This document shows positions 21,230-30,503 of a stretch of 64,000 nt of DNA, in pieces (position 1 is the first letter of the stretch; each line of letters starts with the position of its first letter). Below the pieces are notes generated by a model, which did not search any database, had not been told where the DNA came from, and saw only the letters and a program-made list of their open reading frames with translations. This stretch comes from Cyanobium sp. WAJ14-Wanaka (lineage in GTDB: Bacteria; Cyanobacteriota; Cyanobacteriia; PCC-6307; Cyanobiaceae). The stretch is taken from positions 496,001 to 560,000 of the forward strand of contig NZ_JAGQAZ010000001.1 in the NCBI RefSeq assembly GCF_024345375.1, in the 5' to 3' direction. The position numbers and the translations under genes were made by a program.

Positions 21230-22119
21230 GACTGCCAGCCCTACTGATCGAAGCGTTTGCAGCGGGGCCCTGCGCGGGCAACGGAGCGGCGGTGGTGCGC
21301 CTTGAGTGCCCTCTCGATGACCGAATCCTGCAGGGATTAGCCCGCACCCTGAACCAATCGGAGACGGCCTTCCTCGAGCCCAAGGGGGTGGCCTGGGGGC
21401 TGCGCTGGTTCACACCCACCTGTGAGGTGCCCCTCTGTGGCCACGCCACCCTGGCGGCACTCCTGGCCCTGGGGCATTGGGGCCTGCTTAGGCCAGGTGA
21501 AGCCACTTCCCTGCAGACCCTCAGCGGCGAGCTGCGGGCGTCCCTAGGCAGCCAGCAAACCCCAGGTGCCAGCCCCAGCGGAGCGATTGAACTGCCCTAT
21601 GGCCAATTGCTGGAGGCCGATTGCCCCCCATACCTTTGCCAGCTACTCAGATCCCAATTGGCTGGGGAGGTACAACTTTTCTGGCGATCTGAACTCGGCT
21701 ACTCAGTAGGTCTACTTAGCCCGGATGCCCCCCTAGATCAGGCGGATGGCCTGGCGGCGCTGATGGCTGGTGCCCTGTCCGGGCCAGAGCGCCAGGGTCT
21801 GGTCCTGATGCAGGCCTTGGATCAGCATTCAGCCCTGCCCAGGCCCACGGTCAGTGGCAAGGCTGCCAACTACCAACTTCGCTTTTTCGCCCCAGGCCTG
21901 GGAATAGCCGAGGATCCGGTCACCGGCTCCGCCCATGCCCTGGTGGCTCCCTACTGGCTGGAATTGCTTGGCGAAAATGAGGTTGTTGGCTGGCAATGCT
22001 CCAGCAGGCCCGGAGGCATGGTGCTTAATCCCACAGCGCCAGGATGGATGCGAATCCAGGGCAGCGGCCATGTGCTCTGGGATGGCGTACTGAACCTTCC
22101 GGATGGGTCTCCAGAGTGA
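21226..22119 (+). CDS. PhzF family isomerase/epimerase-like protein
   Basis: A 297-residue protein of the PhzF fold, related to diaminopimelate epimerase but using an acidic residue. The GTG start overlaps the gpsA stop. Signature segments are GPCAGNGAAVVRLE near the start, the catalytic Glu in SETAFLEP, PLCGHATLAALLALG and EDPVTGSAHALVAPYW near the end. The natural substrate is unknown for most of the family. It overlaps the SpoIID-like gene by four bases. Confidence 0.88.
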   Translation: MRLPALLIEAFAAGPCAGNGAAVVRLECPLDDRILQGLARTLNQSETAFLEPKGVAWGLRWFTPTCEVPLCGHATLAALLALGHWGLLRPGEATSLQTLSGELRASLGSQQTPGASPSGAIELPYGQLLEADCPPYLCQLLRSQLAGEVQLFWRSELGYSVGLLSPDAPLDQADGLAALMAGALSGPERQGLVLMQALDQHSALPRPTVSGKAANYQLRFFAPGLGIAEDPVTGSAHALVAPYWLELLGENEVVGWQCSSRPGGMVLNPTAPGWMRIQGSGHVLWDGVLNLPDGSPE

Positions 22120-23054
22120 GGCTCCAAGGCCTACTGGCCATACCCCTGGCCCTTGGGGCCCTGGGTCTGGGCTACGGGGCCCAGTCCCTATCCTCCAGGC
22201 CCCAGGTGGGCCAGGAATCGGCCCTGCTTGAGGCCTTCATGGCCGCCCCGCCTCCAGCGGCTGACACCCATCAAAGCGCCCAGGAATTAAGGCAACTGCG
22301 GGCCCAGCGCAGCGCCAATGGTTTGGCAGAACCATCCGCAGGCAGTCCAGTCGACCTGGAGATCCGGGTGGCCCTCCTGGCGGCGAGCCAGGAACCAAAC
22401 CTCAGCGCGACCGGCCGCTGGCAGTTAGTTGGCCGTGGGGGACAGCTGCTGGAGCGGGGCCAACCGGGGCAACTGGTGAATCTTGATCTCTTCCGTCGCA
22501 CGGCCCCAGAGGCCTGGTTGCAAAGCGACGGTGCAGCCCTAGTTGTAAACGGCAATCCCTATGCGGGGCGAATCCGCATTGTCAATTCAGGGGGCTCGCT
22601 CTCGGTGATTAATCACCTGCCGCTTGAGACCTACATCCAATCGGTGGTGGGCTCAGAAATGCCTAGCAGTTGGTCCATTGAAGCCCTTAAGGCCCAGGCC
22701 GTGGCGGCCCGCTCCTACGCCCTCGCCCACATGGCCAGGCCAGCAAACCGGTATTGGCACCTAGGTGACAACACCCGCTGGCAGGCCTATCGAGGCCTTG
22801 AAGCCACCACGCCGCGAACCCGCCAGGCCACCGCCAGCACCGCTGGCCTGATCCTCAGCTACCAGGGCGCGATTGTGGAAAGCCTCTATGCGGCCACCAG
22901 GGCCATCACCCAGGAAGCCCATGGCCACCTGGGGGCAAGCATGAGCCAGCATGGAGCCCAGGAGCTGGCCCAGCAGGGAATGCGCTACAACGCAATCCTT
23001 GGCAGCTATTACCAGGGTGCCTCCCTTGCCCGCTTGCGATCCGGATCCCGCTAA
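22116..23054 (+). CDS. SpoIID/LytB domain protein
   Basis: Probable periplasmic or lipoprotein-like peptidoglycan amidase-enhancer/lytic protein of the SpoIID family. I choose GTG 22116, which overlaps the PhzF stop (GTGA) and opens with a signal/anchor segment (LLAIPLALGALGLGYGAQSL). The SpoIID core is clear in LPLETYIQSVVGSEMPSSW and ALKAQAVAARSYAL. The C-terminal part is condensed: SLYAATRAIT is followed within about ten residues by GHLGASMSQHGAQ, where classic SpoIID proteins have a much longer insert. An enzymatic role is therefore less certain than the fold. Confidence 0.82.
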   Translation: MRLQGLLAIPLALGALGLGYGAQSLSSRPQVGQESALLEAFMAAPPPAADTHQSAQELRQLRAQRSANGLAEPSAGSPVDLEIRVALLAASQEPNLSATGRWQLVGRGGQLLERGQPGQLVNLDLFRRTAPEAWLQSDGAALVVNGNPYAGRIRIVNSGGSLSVINHLPLETYIQSVVGSEMPSSWSIEALKAQAVAARSYALAHMARPANRYWHLGDNTRWQAYRGLEATTPRTRQATASTAGLILSYQGAIVESLYAATRAITQEAHGHLGASMSQHGAQELAQQGMRYNAILGSYYQGASLARLRSGSR

Positions 23055-23057
23055 GTC

Positions 23058-23885
23058 GTGCGCGCAAATGTCCTCTGGCAACGGGCCTGTTCCCAATCGG
23101 AGCGATCGCTCAACAGCGGCGCCCTGGTACCCCTGGGTACCGAGGTAATTGACGGGCCCGGCTTTTTCCCATTTGTGCTGCGCAGGCTTACGGATCCCAC
23201 TCCCAAGCACCTGAGCAGCGGAGGGCCGAAACCGAATCCCTTCCTCCCCTGGGAACAGGATTTGGAGGTGGCTCGCCTTGGCAGCTCCCATGGGCTGATC
23301 CTCAACAAGTACCCGGTGCAACAGGCCCACGTGTTGCTGATCAGCCAAGACTGGCAACCCCAATCCGGCTGGCTTACGACCCTCGACTGGCAGGCGGTGG
23401 CGCAGGTTGCAAGGGACACCGATGGGCTGTGGTTTTTTAACAGTGCCGCCAGGGCAGGCGCCAGTCAGCCCCACCGCCACCTGCAGCTGCTGCCCCGCCA
23501 TGGGGGGGAACAATCCTGCCCCCTTGAGCCGGCCCTGCTCAGCCAACTCGCGGGCAGCTCCCCTTCCTGGCCCTGGAAATATGCCCTCAGCAGGCGTCAA
23601 CCGGGGATAGATCACCGGGATCTGGAGGGTCATTACCTGGATCATGCAGCTCAATTGGGCCTGGGGGATCCCAGGTCTGACCTCCAGCCAAAGGCTTCCC
23701 ACAACGTCCTGTTCTGCGACCACTGGTACCTAACAGTCGTCCGCAGTCAGGAGCACTGCGCCGGTTTCAGTGTCAATGCCCTCGGATATGCGGGCTACCT
23801 ACTGGCCACCGAAAAATCAGATCTGGACTGGCTGGCTCTGCATGGGCCCCAGGCCCTGCTGGAGGCCGTTGCGCCTGGGTGGTGA
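23058..23885 (+). CDS. ATP adenylyltransferase (Ap4A phosphorylase)
   Basis: A 275-residue HIT-superfamily enzyme that phosphorolyses diadenosine tetraphosphate to ADP and ATP. The GTG start comes three bases after the SpoIID stop. The segments LGSSHGLILNKYPVQQAHVLLIS and the catalytic triad region SQPHRHLQLLP (His-x-His) are plain, and the C-terminal domain has SHNVLFCDHWYLTVVRSQ. It closes the gpsA-PhzF-SpoIID run and is followed by a hairpin terminator. Confidence 0.9.
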   Translation: MRANVLWQRACSQSERSLNSGALVPLGTEVIDGPGFFPFVLRRLTDPTPKHLSSGGPKPNPFLPWEQDLEVARLGSSHGLILNKYPVQQAHVLLISQDWQPQSGWLTTLDWQAVAQVARDTDGLWFFNSAARAGASQPHRHLQLLPRHGGEQSCPLEPALLSQLAGSSPSWPWKYALSRRQPGIDHRDLEGHYLDHAAQLGLGDPRSDLQPKASHNVLFCDHWYLTVVRSQEHCAGFSVNALGYAGYLLATEKSDLDWLALHGPQALLEAVAPGW

Positions 23886-23957
23886 CTGGAACCGCGGGGT
23901 AAATAAAACTTCAGTGTTTTCACGGTTGTGCTGAAGGCGGTTGGGGCGGCTTGTTGG

Positions 23958-23993
23958 AAAAGGGAACGACAGGTAAACATTGTCGCTCCTTTT
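23958..23993 (+). terminator. Probable intrinsic terminator after the Ap4A phosphorylase gene
   Basis: Inverted repeat AAAAGG/CCTTTT (23958-23963 with 23988-23993) closes an inner CGACA/TGTCG stem (23967-23971 with 23981-23985). The interior loop is small and the stem ends in a T-run on the plus strand. It lies 72 bases after the stop and 34 bases before the sigma-factor GTG, so it should separate the two transcripts. Confidence 0.5.
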
Positions 23994-24026
23994 GAACACC
24001 AACTACTGCCAACGGACTGCTGACCA

Positions 24027-24716
24027 GTGACTACCCAATCCCAACAAAAACCATCGAAGGCCACCAGGGCACGTAATAAAAGAATCTGCCGATACATCGC
24101 CCTGGTAGAACCGATTGCCAGGTTCTATGCCAGCAACTCGCCTGAACCAATTGATGATCTCCGCCAGGTTGGATTAATGGGACTGCTGCGAGCATCCGAG
24201 CTCTATGAACCAAAACGAAAAATTGCCTTCGAAGCCTTTGCAAAACCCCACATTCGTGGAGCCATGCTCCACTATCTGCGGGATGGAGCCCCAGCCATTC
24301 GACTCCCCAGAACGATTGTCGAGCTGCGCCAAAGGGATCCATCGCGCCTCACAGCAAAGGAACAGCAACGCCTAGATGAAGTGGCAGGCATGCGAAAAAC
24401 AATCTCACTCGACAGTCATCCAGGCATCAACCTGGAGGCCCTTGGGAGTGATGAGGACGGGCCTTTAAGGGAGGGAGAAATAGACACCCTAGGTCTGCTT
24501 AGCCAACTGGAGCCCAAGTTGGCGAGCGTGGTCAGTCAGGTGGTCCTGGCGGGATGGAGCTACAGACGCACTGCCGAAAAACTTGGAATCAGCCCGATGA
24601 CGGTCCAACGCAGACTCAAATGTGGATTGGCCCTCCTCAAGAAGGGCCTCACCACTGGTTCGCTCAAGACAGGGTCGAACTGGAGTCCCGCTCCATTTGC
24701 CGTTTCAGGGTGCTGA
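24027..24716 (+). CDS. Sigma-70 family factor, group 3 (SigF-like)
   Basis: A 229-residue alternative sigma factor. The GTG start is 34 bases after a terminator hairpin. Region 2 is visible as DDLRQVGLMGLLRASELYEP and AKPHIRGAMLHYLRD (about residues 42-90), followed by AIRLPR. Region 4 is at the C-terminus (WSYRRTAEKLGISPMTVQRRL, about 184-204). The AxPHIRG...HYLRD pattern is that of the SigF/SigB-type group 3 factors, which in cyanobacteria often control envelope or pilus genes. The next plus-strand genes encode a secreted DUF3370 protein and a J-domain protein, plausible targets but not proven. No anti-sigma gene is seen. Confidence 0.88.
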   Translation: MTTQSQQKPSKATRARNKRICRYIALVEPIARFYASNSPEPIDDLRQVGLMGLLRASELYEPKRKIAFEAFAKPHIRGAMLHYLRDGAPAIRLPRTIVELRQRDPSRLTAKEQQRLDEVAGMRKTISLDSHPGINLEALGSDEDGPLREGEIDTLGLLSQLEPKLASVVSQVVLAGWSYRRTAEKLGISPMTVQRRLKCGLALLKKGLTTGSLKTGSNWSPAPFAVSGC

Positions 24717-24855
24717 TCGAGGCATCGATGGCGGCCAATTGCCGCTCCAGGCCATCCCGCCAGAAGGTAAGCATCGTCAGCTTCCGACTCTGGTGACGAC
24801 GCCAGCTGGTGGAGCCTTCGTCGCTGTTGCTGCAGCAGGCGAATGGGGGGAGCAT
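24664..24855 (-). CDS. Putative small hypothetical protein antisense to the sigma-factor 3' end
   Basis: A 63-residue frame from ATG 24855 (it could begin at 24870). Its C-terminal half, RDGLERQLAAIDASISTLK, has the amphipathic heptad pattern of a real helical protein. It fills part of the 340-base gap between the sigma factor and the DUF3370 gene, overlapping the last 53 bases of the former on the opposite strand. I do not recognise a named family. The sequence feels like a conserved picocyanobacterial small protein, but this is a judgement from pattern only. Confidence 0.45.
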   Translation of the reverse strand: MLPPFACCSNSDEGSTSWRRHQSRKLTMLTFWRDGLERQLAAIDASISTLKRQMERDSSSTLS

Positions 24856-25055
24856 GGGAAAATCAAACAATGCTGGACGGTTCTAGCGAGCTGAGGCCAT
24901 GCTCCGAGGGTGGTGCAATCAAGCCAGCAATGGCCCCCAGGCACCATCCCCTAGCCCCATGGGCACTCGGATGTCGTGCTCTCAACCCGCGCTGCAATTG
25001 GCGAGATTTGGGCTCCAAACAAACGAACGGACTTAAAGCGAGACTCGTAAGGCGC

Positions 25056-26627
25056 ATGGGTCTAGGTAGAACCTCCAGATTTCTGCTGCTGATCGGCCTA
25101 TTTCTGCCTTTGATGCAGTTAGGCCCAGCGAATGCCTACGTGGCCCTAATGGCCGGTCAGAGGGCCCAGCCACTCAATGGCAGTTTCAACAAAGTACCGG
25201 TGTTGCACTCCAACCAACCCGAGGAGGTTGAAGGCCCCGGAATTCTGATTAGTACATCCCCGGGGTCTAGCTACGCGGCCGAGGGTGGTGCAGCATTAAC
25301 CAATTCGGCATACACTTTTAATGGGGAGTTTGGGATTCACCTTCATCACAAGTATTTCCCTTCAGAGAACAAGCGTTTTAGCGGTGATCGCAGAAGTGAA
25401 CTGACGCTAGGAATGATATTAATAAACCCAGGGTATGAACCCGTTCATATACGTTTTCAATCGGGGGCTGTTCGCAATAGCTTCGAGGCGCCCTACTTGG
25501 CAAATAATCTCATGGGAGTTAAGCCCCTAGGGATACGGCCCTGGAACACAGGGCCTGGGGATGCAACCGCAACTCAGATGCTTCGCGGAAAGTTAGATTC
25601 TAATCTCTCAGAAGAAATTACAATCCCAGGGCGCTCACGAATCGTCCTATTCAAGACTGAACTACCCTCCCTGGGAATTGCCAATGCCCTGCTCAAAGGC
25701 AGGAGTGATGGGCCCTTCCAAATGGCGGTTGTTGCTGCCAAGAATCCCGGCAGCGACTATGACATAGTTGCCGTACTGGATGAGGGAATGCTGGCTCCTG
25801 GCAGGGTATATCTCAATAGGGTTAATGACATAAAAAATAAATTGGTATTTTCCAGAGTTGGAGGAGTGGCGATTGGCGATCTCTATCAAGCCTCTTTAAG
25901 TCATAATCTTGAAACTCAGGGTCCATTGCATGTGCCATTTACTAGTACAGACAGAACTAATTTTGGAACAAAAGAGATTCAAGTTAACCAGTTAGCATCA
26001 AGAATGATCGATTCATCCCTGAATAATGTTGGCACCTATGGGGTAAGATTTGAAGTTACGCTAAATCTAACGGGTAGCGGACCCTATGAACTGGTCCTGA
26101 GCCATCCTGTCGTCTATGGCAAATCCAAGCCAATTGTTGCTTTCCGGGGTTCCATTCAAATTGAGACCGATGAAGGCGATGAAGATATACATGTTGGCCT
26201 AAAGTCTGGCGAGAGTCTTCCACTTAAATCCCTTTATCTCAGGGCGAACCAGGTTAACCGAATCAAGGTGGTAATGGTTTACCCAGCTGACGCCACGCCT
26301 GGACACCTATTGAGTGTGGTTCCAGCCTCACAACTTGCCACTTTTCAGGAACAGGAAAAGCAGGCTGCAATTGCTAGAGCTACCGAAACAAATAACGTGA
26401 GGAAAATGATTATTCCGCCTGATCTGCAGCCACCTGCTAGTGCTGAATTTGGGACCTTTATTATGCGGCTGCCGGTCATTGATGCCCCCCTGACTCCCCC
26501 TCCGATGCTGCGGAGTGATCAAATCCCCTATCAAGTACCGGGAGGTCTTAACCAATCCCTTATTGATAGTTACCAGGAATCGATAGAATTTCAACAACGT
26601 CTAATAAAAAGCCCACTAGATCGTTAA
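25056..26627 (+). CDS. DUF3370 domain secreted protein
   Basis: A 523-residue exported protein. ATG 25056 gives a clear signal peptide (FLLLIGLFLPLMQLGPANA). The frame extends upstream to 24843 but that stretch has no family character. The mature part matches the cyanobacterial DUF3370 pattern: MAGQRAQPLNGSFNKVPVLHSN, PGILISTSPGSSY and FNGEFGIHLHHKYFP. Most of it is predicted beta-strand and it ends in a Pro-rich tail. Function of the family is unknown; a surface or S-layer-like role is possible. The gene is visibly AT-richer than its neighbours. The J-domain gene starts two bases after it, so they form one transcript. Confidence 0.8.
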   Translation: MGLGRTSRFLLLIGLFLPLMQLGPANAYVALMAGQRAQPLNGSFNKVPVLHSNQPEEVEGPGILISTSPGSSYAAEGGAALTNSAYTFNGEFGIHLHHKYFPSENKRFSGDRRSELTLGMILINPGYEPVHIRFQSGAVRNSFEAPYLANNLMGVKPLGIRPWNTGPGDATATQMLRGKLDSNLSEEITIPGRSRIVLFKTELPSLGIANALLKGRSDGPFQMAVVAAKNPGSDYDIVAVLDEGMLAPGRVYLNRVNDIKNKLVFSRVGGVAIGDLYQASLSHNLETQGPLHVPFTSTDRTNFGTKEIQVNQLASRMIDSSLNNVGTYGVRFEVTLNLTGSGPYELVLSHPVVYGKSKPIVAFRGSIQIETDEGDEDIHVGLKSGESLPLKSLYLRANQVNRIKVVMVYPADATPGHLLSVVPASQLATFQEQEKQAAIARATETNNVRKMIIPPDLQPPASAEFGTFIMRLPVIDAPLTPPPMLRSDQIPYQVPGGLNQSLIDSYQESIEFQQRLIKSPLDR

Positions 26628-26629
26628 CA

Positions 26630-27676
26630 ATGGATCGTAAACGATTTAGCCTGGAACTAAGCGAGGGCTTACTCGCAAGAATTGATCAATTCAAAAGCGA
26701 GTGGGGCCTGCGAAGCCGGGGCGCAATTGTTGAACGTCTCCTGCTGGAAATACTGCCTAATGAGGAGCAAGATCCTGGCCCCACTGGCTTTAGCTACCCG
26801 GCTAATGGCTTAAATCAGGGTGCAAACACCCTTGATGAACAAACATCCCTTGGCCTGGAAGATATTGAATCCTCGGCATTTGATGAGGGTGGCTCACTCG
26901 TGCTGGTTGCCCATTCATCTGGTGCCCTTTCCCTTGACCTGGGTGATGGTGTTTCTAATCAACTACCAAATGGTAATTCAGACGTAAATTTCAATACTTC
27001 AAGGATTGACCTGCCTGGTTTTGTTCGAAAACAATCTGCCCAGATAAAACGCAGTCTTTATTCAAGGGATCAATCTCCAGCCCATGCCCCCGAACCGATG
27101 CCCATGGGTAGTGGTGAAACCATTGAACGGGCCCTTGACAAGGCAAGAAATCACTGGCTGGAGCTCTATGGGCACGAGGCCAATGAAGCCGTGATTGAGG
27201 CCGCCATGACCTGGTTGGCCAAGGATGTTTGGCCCCAATCAGATCAGAGCGAAGGTCGAATCTTTACCTGGAGCCTGGCATCAGTTGTGATTGAGTCTCT
27301 TGCGACTGGCTGGCTGCAGGGCCCTCCCAACTTTGAACGGATCATGGTGATGGCTGGCGTTCTGGAGGATCCCTTCAGCACCTCAACACTGGAGATACGT
27401 CTTCCAACCTTGATTCGTAGATTTGTGAACCGCTTTCGAAAACGAAGGCAGGGCACATCTTTCCAGACCCTGGAGCACACCATGACGCTTCACGGTGCCT
27501 TGAAATTACTGAATCTGCCAACTGCCCCTGGCCATCGGCTCACCCTCTCGGAAATACGCGAGGGATACCGGGAACTGGCCTTAAAAACCCATCCTGATTC
27601 AGGCGGAAGCGAGGAAGGCATGCGGAAGGTGAACGAGGCATACCAGCTGCTTAAGGAGCTTTACCGCAAGGAGTAA
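26630..27676 (+). CDS. Protein with N-terminal ribbon-helix-helix-like segment and C-terminal J-domain
   Basis: A 348-residue protein in three parts. Residues 1-42 (RKRFSLELSEGLLARIDQFK then RSRGAIVERLLLEIL) look like a strand-helix-helix CopG/ribbon-helix-helix unit. Residues about 45-165 are Gly/Ser/Asp/Asn-rich and probably disordered. A helical domain follows, then a J-domain at about 288-348 with the HPD motif (ALKTHPDSGG) and KVNEAYQLLKELY. There is no G/F region or zinc finger, so it is a class III J-protein. The pairing of a DNA-binding-like unit with an Hsp70 co-chaperone module is unusual. It is co-transcribed with the DUF3370 gene. Confidence 0.8.
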   Translation: MDRKRFSLELSEGLLARIDQFKSEWGLRSRGAIVERLLLEILPNEEQDPGPTGFSYPANGLNQGANTLDEQTSLGLEDIESSAFDEGGSLVLVAHSSGALSLDLGDGVSNQLPNGNSDVNFNTSRIDLPGFVRKQSAQIKRSLYSRDQSPAHAPEPMPMGSGETIERALDKARNHWLELYGHEANEAVIEAAMTWLAKDVWPQSDQSEGRIFTWSLASVVIESLATGWLQGPPNFERIMVMAGVLEDPFSTSTLEIRLPTLIRRFVNRFRKRRQGTSFQTLEHTMTLHGALKLLNLPTAPGHRLTLSEIREGYRELALKTHPDSGGSEEGMRKVNEAYQLLKELYRKE

Positions 27677-28474
27677 GCGAGCTTGCCTGTCTTTCCTGAG
27701 ACCCTCTTAGGGATTCAGATTGGACCAAGGCAAGTCTCACGAGAGAGCCCCAGGGCTTCTCGCTTTTCATCAATGGCTGGGCTCCGTAGGTGCGGCCGCG
27801 GAGTGGGGCGACGGCATTGGTCCCAAGGCCCAGAAGGCTGAAAGTGGGTCTCGGTTACCCAGGTTAAGACTAATAAGTAGTCCGAGGCTGGTCTTAGACT
27901 GCTCTCGTGAGATCAGGATTAATCGGCGATTTCATTTGCACGGCCCTGTACTCGTTAAGCCTGCTTTTCGGCCCCTTCGTCATCAGTTTCGCCAGGCTGC
28001 GAAAGCAGATCATTGTCCAACCAGCTGTCCAAAGCGAATGGGTGCGAAATATGGGCGGCTATTGCCCAGTAAAATCGATCTTGACCCATATTTTTCAGGG
28101 GATTTTCAATGCCGCGTCACTGTGGATAATGCAGGTACGCAAGTAATCAGTGGTTTTCCTGCTATTTCGCCTGCGGGAGTCATCCATGGGCCCAGGAAAT
28201 CGATGTCGGATTCAGGAGTTTTCTTGTTATCTTTTGTCTTATCCAAGACAAGAGTTAAGACCTAAAATAAGACCAGATCTGGATTTGGTAGAAACATTGC
28301 GAATGGTTGCAGCAGGCGGTCTGCGCGAAATTTGCATTTCTGGGTCACGTTCGATTCACGACGGACAGCGCCACATTCGATCGGCGCCACATTCGACCGG
28401 TGCTGCAACAGCAGGACCCATGCGACGCAATTTGCTACTCATTCGTCTTGGGTAAGATTCGGAACGTGTCCAAT
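27677..28474. other. Gene-free region with several inverted repeats
   Basis: About 800 bases without a convincing gene; the longest frame (27720-28265) has no recognisable domain. It contains a hairpin right after the upstream stop (CTGA.../...TCAG with CCC/GGG inside, 27696-27718), a TAAGAC/GTCTTA pair near 27864-27898, a perfect TTGTCTT/AAGACAA hairpin (28234-28251) and a 16-base tandem repeat (28368-28399). It could hold a small RNA or the long upstream control region of another element. I could not match it to 6S RNA, tmRNA or RNase P RNA. Confidence 0.4.
28368..28399. repeat. Two tandem copies of a 16-base unit
   Basis: The unit GCGCCACATTCGAtCG occurs at 28368-28383 and again at 28384-28399 with one change (T to C). 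It is in gene-free DNA about 75 bases upstream of the apcD terminator. The repeat is short and could be chance or a protein-binding site. Confidence 0.6.
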
Positions 28475-28512
28475 AAAAAGCCCCGGCTGAGACTCGCTCG
28501 ACTGGGGCTTTT
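28475..28512 (-). terminator. Intrinsic terminator of apcD (likely bidirectional)
   Basis: AAAAGCCCC at 28476-28484 pairs perfectly with GGGGCTTTT at 28504-28512 around a 19-base loop. It lies 18 bases past the apcD stop and ends in a T-run in the apcD direction. The flanking A-run would serve the other strand too, so it may also end any transcript crossing the gene-free region. Confidence 0.8.
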
Positions 28513-28529
28513 GGGGTTGAGCGGTGTTC

Positions 28530-29024
28530 CTAGGTGGGGGTCTGCATTCCCTGGATTAGGTAGTCGAAATATGGCGAGGCCAACGCAGCCTCCTCGGTGC
28601 CCAATAGGGCTAGGGCTGCTTCCTTCATGGTGCGCATTGCTTCCACCATGCCTGCCATGGGCACGCCCAGGCTGTTGTACATCTCCCGTGCCCCGACAAG
28701 GCCAATCTGCTGAATCATCTCCGTACTTCCCGCCAGCACCCCGTAGGTCACAAGCCTTAGGTACCAGCTGTAATCCCTGAGGCACTGGGCTCTCTGCTTT
28801 TGGCCAAAGGCATTGCCGCCAGGAGCCACGTAGTCGGGCTTGCGGGTGAAGAGTTGCTTGGCTGCTTCGTCAACGATTTTCTTTTCGTACTCAGTGAGAA
28901 CCCTCACCACAGCCAGGCGTCTAGCCCCGCCGCTGAGAAAGTCGACCATCGAGCGCAGTTCTCCGCCACTCGGATAACGCAGCTGGTCATCGGCCTGGAG
29001 GATCAGATCCCGAACGACACTCAT
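28530..29024 (-). CDS. apcD: Allophycocyanin-B alpha subunit
   Basis: A phycobilisome core subunit that serves as a terminal energy emitter, passing excitation to the photosystems (mainly photosystem I in other cyanobacteria). The best start is ATG 29024 ([19 protein letters not shown]); a frame start at 29036 would add four residues. The 164-residue length and segments [13 protein letters not shown], the chromophore Cys in [19 protein letters not shown] and [10 protein letters not shown] fit ApcD better than ApcA or ApcF. It stands alone, away from any apcABC cluster, and is followed by a strong terminator. Confidence 0.93.
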
Positions 29025-29116
29025 TGCACCGGCCACACTTGATCACGACTCTATCGACCCTGCCCCAGGAATCACGGATGGATTGGCAAGGTGTAACGCA
29101 GCTTTTCAACGCCTAG

Positions 29117-29134
29117 GGTCAGGTCCTGACCTGA
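29117..29134. promoter_or_regulatory. Palindrome just upstream of the rlmD start
   Basis: GGTCAGG-T-CCTGACC (29117-29131) and the overlapping TCAGGTC-CT-GACCTGA (29119-29134) are two near-perfect palindromes. They lie between the divergent apcD and rlmD starts and only four bases before the rlmD TTG. The site could be an operator, or a hairpin in the rlmD leader that masks its ribosome-binding site. Confidence 0.4.
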
Positions 29135-29138
29135 GAAT

Positions 29139-30503
29139 TTGCCCGAAGTGGAAAACCCTGTGGTTGGCAGCCGTGCAACCGTTCAAATCACCGGGCTTTC
29201 CCACGATGGCCAGGGAGTGGCCCGCATTGGTGATCAGGTCCTGTTTGTTGCTGACGCCCTCCAGGGCGAATCGGTTGAAGTTCAGCTAACCCACAAGGCA
29301 AAGCGCCATTGGCTTGCCCGTCTTCTCACGGTGAATGGGCCTTCGCCCGATCGACAGAAACCACCCTGCATACTGGCCGCCGACTGCGGCGGATGCGCAA
29401 TGCAGCACCTCAGTGATGGGGGGCAGGTTGCCTGGAAGCACCAGAAGGTGGTTGATGCCATGCAGCGAATTGCCCACATCGACGAGCCGGTTCTACCACT
29501 GCTTAGCAGTGACAATTCGATGGCCTATCGCAATAGGGCGATCATTCCCCTCGAGCGTCAGGAGGATGGTCGACTTCGTGCCGGCTATTACCGTCGCGGT
29601 ACCCATCGCATCGTCAACATGAATCAATGCCCGGTGCTGGATCCGCGCATTGATTGCCTCATTGCCCCTTTAAAGCACGACCTCGAAACCAGCGACTGGC
29701 CCGTCGACTGTGATCTCATTGGAGAGGGTGGTTTGCGGCATTTGGCCCTTAGGGTTGGCATCAACACAGGCGAGGTACTTCTCACCCTCGTTTCAAGCCA
29801 CGATGACCTGGATGGATTAGCTATTCAGGCTGCCCACTGGATGGCCCGTTGGCCCGAATTGGTTGGTGTTTGCCTCAACCTTCAGCCAAAGGCCACCAAT
29901 ACCCTGATGGGTCCTGAAACCAGGGTCATAGCAGGGCGCAGCTGGCTTCGTGAGCAGTTTTTTGGACTGGAATTGCGCATTGCTGCCGATACATTTTTCC
30001 AGGTCAATACTCCCCAGGCCGAAAGAATTGTCCCCCTACTACTCCAGGCCATAGACCCATTGCCCTTGGGGGTAATGGTCGATGCCTACTGTGGTATTGG
30101 CACCTATAGCTTGCCTATTGCCGCTGCAGGCTGGACAGTCCATGGCATCGAATTAAGCGCCGAAGCCGTGGCCCAGGCCAAGGTAAATGCGGTTGAAAAT
30201 GATGTGGCAGATAGGGCCACCTATGAGGCTGGAATTGTTAGTCGCTGCCTACCTGAACATCTTGTGCACTGTGATGTGCTTTTCCTTGACCCTCCCCGCA
30301 AAGGTCTGGATGGCTATGTACTGGCGGCTATCTTGGATAATTCTCCCCAAAGCCTGATCTACCTCAGCTGTGATCCGGCAACCCTGGCCAGGGATCTGGC
30401 CTCCCTGGTTAAGGAAAACTACCTGTTGGAGTCTATCCAACCGATTGATTTCTTCCCCCAGACCAGCCATGTTGAGACGTTGGCCATTCTTAGGCGGCGT
30501 TAG
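29139..30503 (+). CDS. rlmD: 23S rRNA (uracil-5-)-methyltransferase RlmD/RumA family
   Basis: SAM-dependent m5U methylation of 23S rRNA (U1939 or U747 type). The 454-residue protein has an N-terminal TRAM domain (ITGLSHDGQGVARIGDQV), a 4Fe-4S cysteine set (PPCILAADCGGCAMQHL), an AdoMet-binding Rossmann domain (MVDAYCGIGTYSLPIA) and DPPRKGLDG followed by the catalytic LSCDPATLARDL. The start is TTG 29139 or GTG 29148. Neither has a strong ribosome-binding site and a palindrome sits directly upstream. It converges with pheT at a 19-base gap. The exact target uridine is not fixed by sequence. Confidence 0.9.
   Translation: MPEVENPVVGSRATVQITGLSHDGQGVARIGDQVLFVADALQGESVEVQLTHKAKRHWLARLLTVNGPSPDRQKPPCILAADCGGCAMQHLSDGGQVAWKHQKVVDAMQRIAHIDEPVLPLLSSDNSMAYRNRAIIPLERQEDGRLRAGYYRRGTHRIVNMNQCPVLDPRIDCLIAPLKHDLETSDWPVDCDLIGEGGLRHLALRVGINTGEVLLTLVSSHDDLDGLAIQAAHWMARWPELVGVCLNLQPKATNTLMGPETRVIAGRSWLREQFFGLELRIAADTFFQVNTPQAERIVPLLLQAIDPLPLGVMVDAYCGIGTYSLPIAAAGWTVHGIELSAEAVAQAKVNAVENDVADRATYEAGIVSRCLPEHLVHCDVLFLDPPRKGLDGYVLAAILDNSPQSLIYLSCDPATLARDLASLVKENYLLESIQPIDFFPQTSHVETLAILRRR

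Follow-up and report, generated by a model that had tools for sequence, protein, structure and literature searches.

We analysed a stretch of 64,000 nucleotides of Cyanobium sp. WAJ14-Wanaka (contig NZ_JAGQAZ010000001.1, positions 496,001 to 560,000; the window), and within it a locus built around a protein which joins a ribbon-helix-helix (RHH)-like N-terminus with a C-terminal J-domain and which we call RHH-J. Three plus-strand open reading frames reported in a preliminary description of the locus exist, at 24027-24716 (229 amino acids), 24843-26627 (594 amino acids) and 26630-27676 (348 amino acids). They encode a group 3 (SigF-like) sigma factor, a large exported protein of the DUF3370 family and RHH-J, respectively. 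Between the DUF3370 stop codon, whose last base is 26627, and the ATG at 26630 lies the two-nucleotide gap previously noted. A fourth gene, overlooked in that description, encodes a conserved small protein of 63 amino acids on the minus strand (24664-24855); it overlaps the sigma gene tail-to-tail and is divergent from the DUF3370 gene. The domain architecture of RHH-J, its conservation across the family Cyanobiaceae and its fixed gene order are well supported.

The combination of the two domains in one protein was borne out by profiles, alignment and fold matches. In an alignment of 25 homologues, 45 conserved N-terminal residues come first, then a variable linker that leads to an IDLPGFV motif, and lastly the conserved helical domain and the J-domain. 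The RHH-like domain occupies residues 1-47 (26630-26770, plus strand). Its signature residues R5, S7, D19, G26, R28, R30 and G31 are invariant in all 25 homologues, and they include the strand and turn positions through which RHH proteins touch DNA. A profile of the 25 N-termini was compared with 177,635 solved sequences, and NikR (E = 0.0017) was the sole match under 0.1. By fold comparison with VIA-align, residues 2-48 matched NikR (2hza, Z = 5.2) and CopG (1ea4, Z = 4.7). The prediction of an RHH-like N-terminus is thus supported, residues 3-48 matching NikR by profile and fold and CopG by fold. The Pfam family RHH_1 was matched at E ≤ 0.1 by 23 of the 25 homologues, with a best value of 8.4e-6. 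The AlphaFold2 model of RHH-J has a mean predicted local distance difference test score (pLDDT) of 70.7 and is confident at residues 11-40, 161-270 and 290-348, not at 45-127. At the N-terminus it contains helices 12-25 and 30-41 (block pLDDT ~84), and this monomer model lacks the strand.

The J-domain (residues 285-348; 27482-27673, plus strand) was recognized by Pfam DnaJ at residues 304-343 with 32.4 bits (cut-off 27.8), and the same family was matched at E ≤ 0.1 by all 25 homologues. The HPD motif (H321, P322 and D323) is invariant in every one of them. Its closest fold match is 2guz_B (Z = 10.3, root-mean-square deviation (rmsd) 1.8 over 63 residues), and the J-domain of DnaJ bound to DnaK, 5nro_B, was matched with Z = 7.3. 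Between the two ends lies a conserved helical domain (residues ~154-273; 27089-27448, plus strand), modelled with a block pLDDT of 88-96 for residues 161-270. It was found in 35 of 291 genomes of the phylum, all of them in the same family; the fold-match lists for RHH-J were filled by J-domains, and the fold of this middle domain was hardly sampled in them. A mobile or phage origin of RHH-J was considered and rejected, as no relative was found in viral contigs (66 pattern matches, none confirmed) or in 72,556 plasmid records. A search of the open-licence literature in PubMed Central (PMC), judged largely by titles, gave no fusion of an RHH domain with a J-domain.

A survey of 161 genomes of the family, 100 of good quality, placed RHH-J in 128 of them (91 of the good-quality ones). 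Counted by eye, 116 of these 128 matches span the profile from position 11 or earlier to position 342 or later; both ends of the protein are thus kept. DUF3370 of the window type, counted at E ≤ 1e-60, is present in 80 of the 161 genomes. In all 80 it is the immediate upstream neighbour of RHH-J, in the same orientation, with the small gene diverging upstream, and the sigma gene precedes it in at least 72; tblastn found no sigma gene in two of the remaining eight (L113 and L114). The other 48 RHH-J genomes are without window-type DUF3370, and in 40 of them the small gene is divergent, 101-393 bases upstream of RHH-J. In the last eight the small gene has no match or lies elsewhere, and in three of these RHH-J is within 170 bases of the contig start. 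Because the small gene and RHH-J are kept together in those 40 genomes, we regard them as the core of the locus. Sigma and DUF3370 form an accessory pair, mostly present or absent together, and streamlined picocyanobacteria retain the core without either. In two genomes (G017 and G356) sigma and the small gene are found without DUF3370 and RHH-J. The idea that sigma, DUF3370 and RHH-J together make up a module stands as far as their order is conserved, but RHH-J is kept in 48 genomes without window-type DUF3370 and the divergent gene splits sigma from DUF3370. With this opposite-strand gene between them, the three genes do not form one simple operon.

The small gene was revealed by aligning the sigma-DUF3370 spacer of relatives, where the opposite strand is conserved in a codon-like manner. 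It is readable in 87 of 90 loci (51-71 amino acids, median 62; no match in L048, L147 and L152), and its differences at codon positions 1, 2 and 3 (0.44, 0.34 and 0.64 over the 87 loci) fit a coding gene. It is present in 136 of the 161 family genomes and in 99 of the 100 good-quality ones, and three genomes from other families of cyanobacteria (G045, G046 and G047) encode distant relatives. The protein follows the pattern MLPPF..CC...RRHQ.RKL.ML.FWRDG.ERQLAA...ISTL..QM.RD and has no Pfam family above cut-off, the match to Tektin scoring 15 bits. The motif T[TC]CTAG lies 22-28 nucleotides before the ATG of the small gene in 38 of 55 DUF3370-bearing loci and is probably the -10 region. In the window this minus-strand element is at 24880-24889 and reads GTTCTAGCGA on the plus strand. 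Six genomes of one genus (g9: G023, G366, G388, G407, G422 and G434), 95-99% complete, carry the small gene, and no RHH-J or DUF3370 was found in them.

The exported protein was assigned to DUF3370 by Pfam PF11850 (288.6 bits, cut-off 25), in agreement with the preliminary description. The start of its longest reading frame, 24843, is doubted because several relatives have in-frame stops in the aligned upstream part, and it is probably too early. The true start is probably the ATG at 25056, after which come a signal peptide and then YVALMAG, the conserved start of the mature protein; the probable coding sequence would then be 25056-26627 (plus strand), with the mature part from about 25137. 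The reported AT-rich composition of the gene is real, its GC content being 0.49, and that of RHH-J 0.52 (aligned coding parts), compared to 0.58 for the whole window. The different history once suggested for DUF3370 was not supported. Over 15 loci its pairwise identities follow those of ap4A (r = 0.93), rumA (r = 0.88), RHH-J (r = 0.92) and sigma (r = 0.94), and its position is fixed in all 80 genomes that carry it. The gene was thus inherited vertically. A horizontal origin was rejected on these matching identities and on the same dip in several members of the genus, and low GC is common to some relatives, for example L042. The structure model is weak (mean pLDDT 65.1), no solved relative was found by sequence, and nothing on DUF3370 was found in the open-licence PMC literature. 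Foldseek rows under E 0.001 had template modelling scores of 0.10-0.16 to the query and rmsd of 15-22 Å; they were read as chance beta-sheet similarity and were not used. A second, distant DUF3370 gene with 31% identity lies outside the window in the same genome (G000:C1:180430-181791, minus strand).

The sigma factor (24027-24716, plus strand) was confirmed as group 3 by Pfam sigma-70 regions 2 and 4 (43.9 and 32.3 bits, above cut-off), and it passed the general sigma-70 model TIGR02937 with 62.3 bits (cut-off 42.9). Its best NCBIfam model is SigF (NF005644), yet the score of 128.6 bits is under the cut-off of 261. Four relatives from the cluster scored 125-167 bits with this model, and sigma factors from three other families passed it with 316-414 bits. 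In an unrooted tree of 28 proteins, the 16 cluster sigmas lie on one side of a 100/100 branch, with eight other sequences and four second-paralogue sequences on the other side. The cluster sigma is, on this sequence evidence, a group of its own, apart from canonical SigF and from the second paralogue of the family. The best matches to a SigF-type TAGGC/GGTAA core promoter were at or below those in shuffles, both upstream of sigma (52 loci) and upstream of DUF3370 (41 loci), and a SigF-type regulon was therefore dropped. The envelope-stress or surface-layer role put forward in the preliminary description stays hypothetical. A defence system was also rejected; PADLOC gave a weak MzaA match (19.9 bits) for sigma and none for the other three proteins tested.

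Upstream of sigma lies a palindromic motif, TTCAGTGTTTTCACGGTTG (23910-23928, plus strand; family consensus TTCCGTGNTTTCACGGTTG), a putative operator or promoter element which could not be matched to any named element. It is the single match at up to three mismatches in the window, where 0.01 were expected. At up to four mismatches, the consensus was found upstream of sigma in 42 of 52 sigma-bearing loci, as compared to 0.1% of 1,040 shuffles; two of the ten loci without it (L033 and L104) are truncated by contig ends. None of 26 relatives' loci without sigma had it at the same threshold, these loci being mostly AT-rich, which is a confounder. From these counts, the palindrome follows sigma and not RHH-J. 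We considered whether it might be the terminator hairpin of ap4A. Its stem is just 5 bp without a U-run after it, and as the last part of ap4A contains it in L116, L117 and L130, it is not tied to the stop codon. A search of the genus gave few further sites among the matches listed, several of a variant type, and no regulon is claimed. The variant CCGTGATTCCACGGATG in L158, L159 and L160 (G004 and G015) lies in stretches seemingly repeated within and between genomes.

The conserved upstream neighbour of the locus is an Ap4A phosphorylase gene (23058-23885, plus strand; Pfam PF19327 with 119.6 bits and PF09830; synteny). In L051 and L128 (genus g5), about 600 extra bases between ap4A and sigma may hold an opposite-strand gene. 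Downstream, the ~850 bases at 27677-28529, between RHH-J and a minus-strand phycobilisome gene, contain no convincing gene. An Rfam scan of 22000-30000 gave no structured RNA above cut-off.

RHH-J resembles class C J-domain proteins of the Pam18/Tim14 type in its C-terminal J-domain with invariant HPD, and its best fold match, 2guz, is Tim14-Tim16. Unlike them, it carries an RHH-like domain at the N-terminus and, in the middle, a helical domain specific to the family. The likeness to NikR and CopG lies in residues 3-48, and RHH-J has a J-domain where those regulators have their ligand domain. We consider it an even call that RHH-J is a DNA-tethered J-domain co-chaperone (Hsp40), with regulation as its likeliest use. 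We infer dimerisation, DNA binding, DnaK recruitment and the target genes as follows. Dimers formed through the RHH-like N-terminus would occupy an operator, and residues 45-127, a flexible linker that is disordered in the model, would let the remainder of the protein move freely. DnaK (Hsp70) would be drawn to the operator DNA by the C-terminal J-domain, and there it may strip the RHH dimer off its operator or remodel a neighbouring DNA-bound client. Free Hsp70 capacity would thereby set the expression of RHH-J targets. Because the gene order is fixed, the own promoter region of RHH-J is a likely target, and at the locus it would probably act on the operon that it shares with DUF3370 and on the divergent small gene. 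As RHH-J persists where sigma and DUF3370 are both absent, it should have a broader role than these two genes. A narrower version, in which RHH-J is a transcription factor that brings its own Hsp70-recruiting domain and reads chaperone capacity on DNA, with the small protein as partner or first target, is offered tentatively, as possible rather than probable.

Several observations weigh against a DNA-tethered co-chaperone. The window protein reaches 12.9 bits with RHH_1 as a whole and 17.7 bits as a 46-residue piece, missing the cut-off of 20.5; for this reason we call the N-terminus RHH-like and do not file it as a CopG member. In absolute terms the RHH fold match (Z = 5.2) is weak. No relative of the middle domain is known, and the main function could reside there. 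The sole strong palindrome of the locus follows sigma, so no operator for RHH-J was found there, and the open-licence PMC literature gave no experiment on the protein.

Alternatively, RHH-J might be a chromosome or protein-complex factor, which binds DNA broadly or at structural sites and whose J-domain brings DnaK for remodelling in replication, repair or segregation. Its retention in streamlined picocyanobacteria without sigma and DUF3370 would suit such a housekeeping role, and there are precedents for J-domain proteins that bind DNA, namely CbpA and the polyomavirus large T antigen. The J-domain of RHH-J matches theirs in fold (3ucs, Z = 7.1, and 1faf, Z = 7.6, respectively), whereas their DNA-binding domains are of other kinds and their J-domains are N-terminal. 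In Myxococcus, Hsp70 chaperones are functionally linked to a DNA-binding protein of the RHH type: depletion of the RHH nucleoid protein CdbA is reported to have a phenotype that depends on two PilZ-DnaK chaperones, although the proteins there are separate, with no fusion, and the DnaK proteins act on CdbS (PMC10313047). We nevertheless hold a chromosome factor to be somewhat unlikely. The fixed divergent small gene beside RHH-J suggests a local target, and many small RHH proteins act at operators nearby.

It is also conceivable that the RHH-like part is mainly a dimerisation or protein-binding module and that RHH-J serves as dedicated co-chaperone for one client, such as the small protein or the precursor of DUF3370, and has no role at DNA. 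The shortfall of the window protein against RHH_1 would fit, as would the close spacing of DUF3370 and RHH-J in the window and their adjacency in 80 of 80 genomes. RHH-J cannot act on DUF3370 alone, however, because 48 of the 128 genomes that keep it are without window-type DUF3370, and the presumed DNA-contacting residues are among the invariant ones. We judge this single-client function unlikely. That sigma, DUF3370 and RHH-J constitute one envelope or pilus regulon, with sigma transcribing DUF3370-RHH-J under surface stress, seems improbable: sigma does precede DUF3370 in most genomes, a PilT-family gene (E ≤ 1e-40) is found in 79 of 80 DUF3370 genomes versus 33 of 81 others (related genomes being counted as independent), and Synechocystis SigF is reported to govern pili as well as one or more periplasmic proteins whose function is not known (PMC2758279), but genome streamlining and relatedness confound the association with PilT, no SigF-type promoter is enriched upstream of either gene, a divergent gene separates them, and RHH-J is found without either.

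A DNA-tethered co-chaperone would matter beyond this locus. The family comprises tiny ocean and lake cyanobacteria, and RHH-J sits in a long-conserved gene cluster. Picocyanobacteria (Prochlorococcus, Synechococcus and Cyanobium) have few regulators; together with its presence in 128 of 161 genomes and the lack of any paper found on its domain combination, this makes RHH-J a good entry point. The locus also provides a conserved palindrome and a small protein spread across the family, neither of which was matched to anything named. If Hsp70 does act on RHH-J at DNA, the protein would be a simple switch from proteostasis to transcription, in which chaperone capacity is read on the DNA itself, with no need for titration of a sigma factor or for a repressor paired with a separate chaperone. 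The family with the most abundant photosynthetic cells would then carry a transcription factor that recruits Hsp70 by a domain of its own.

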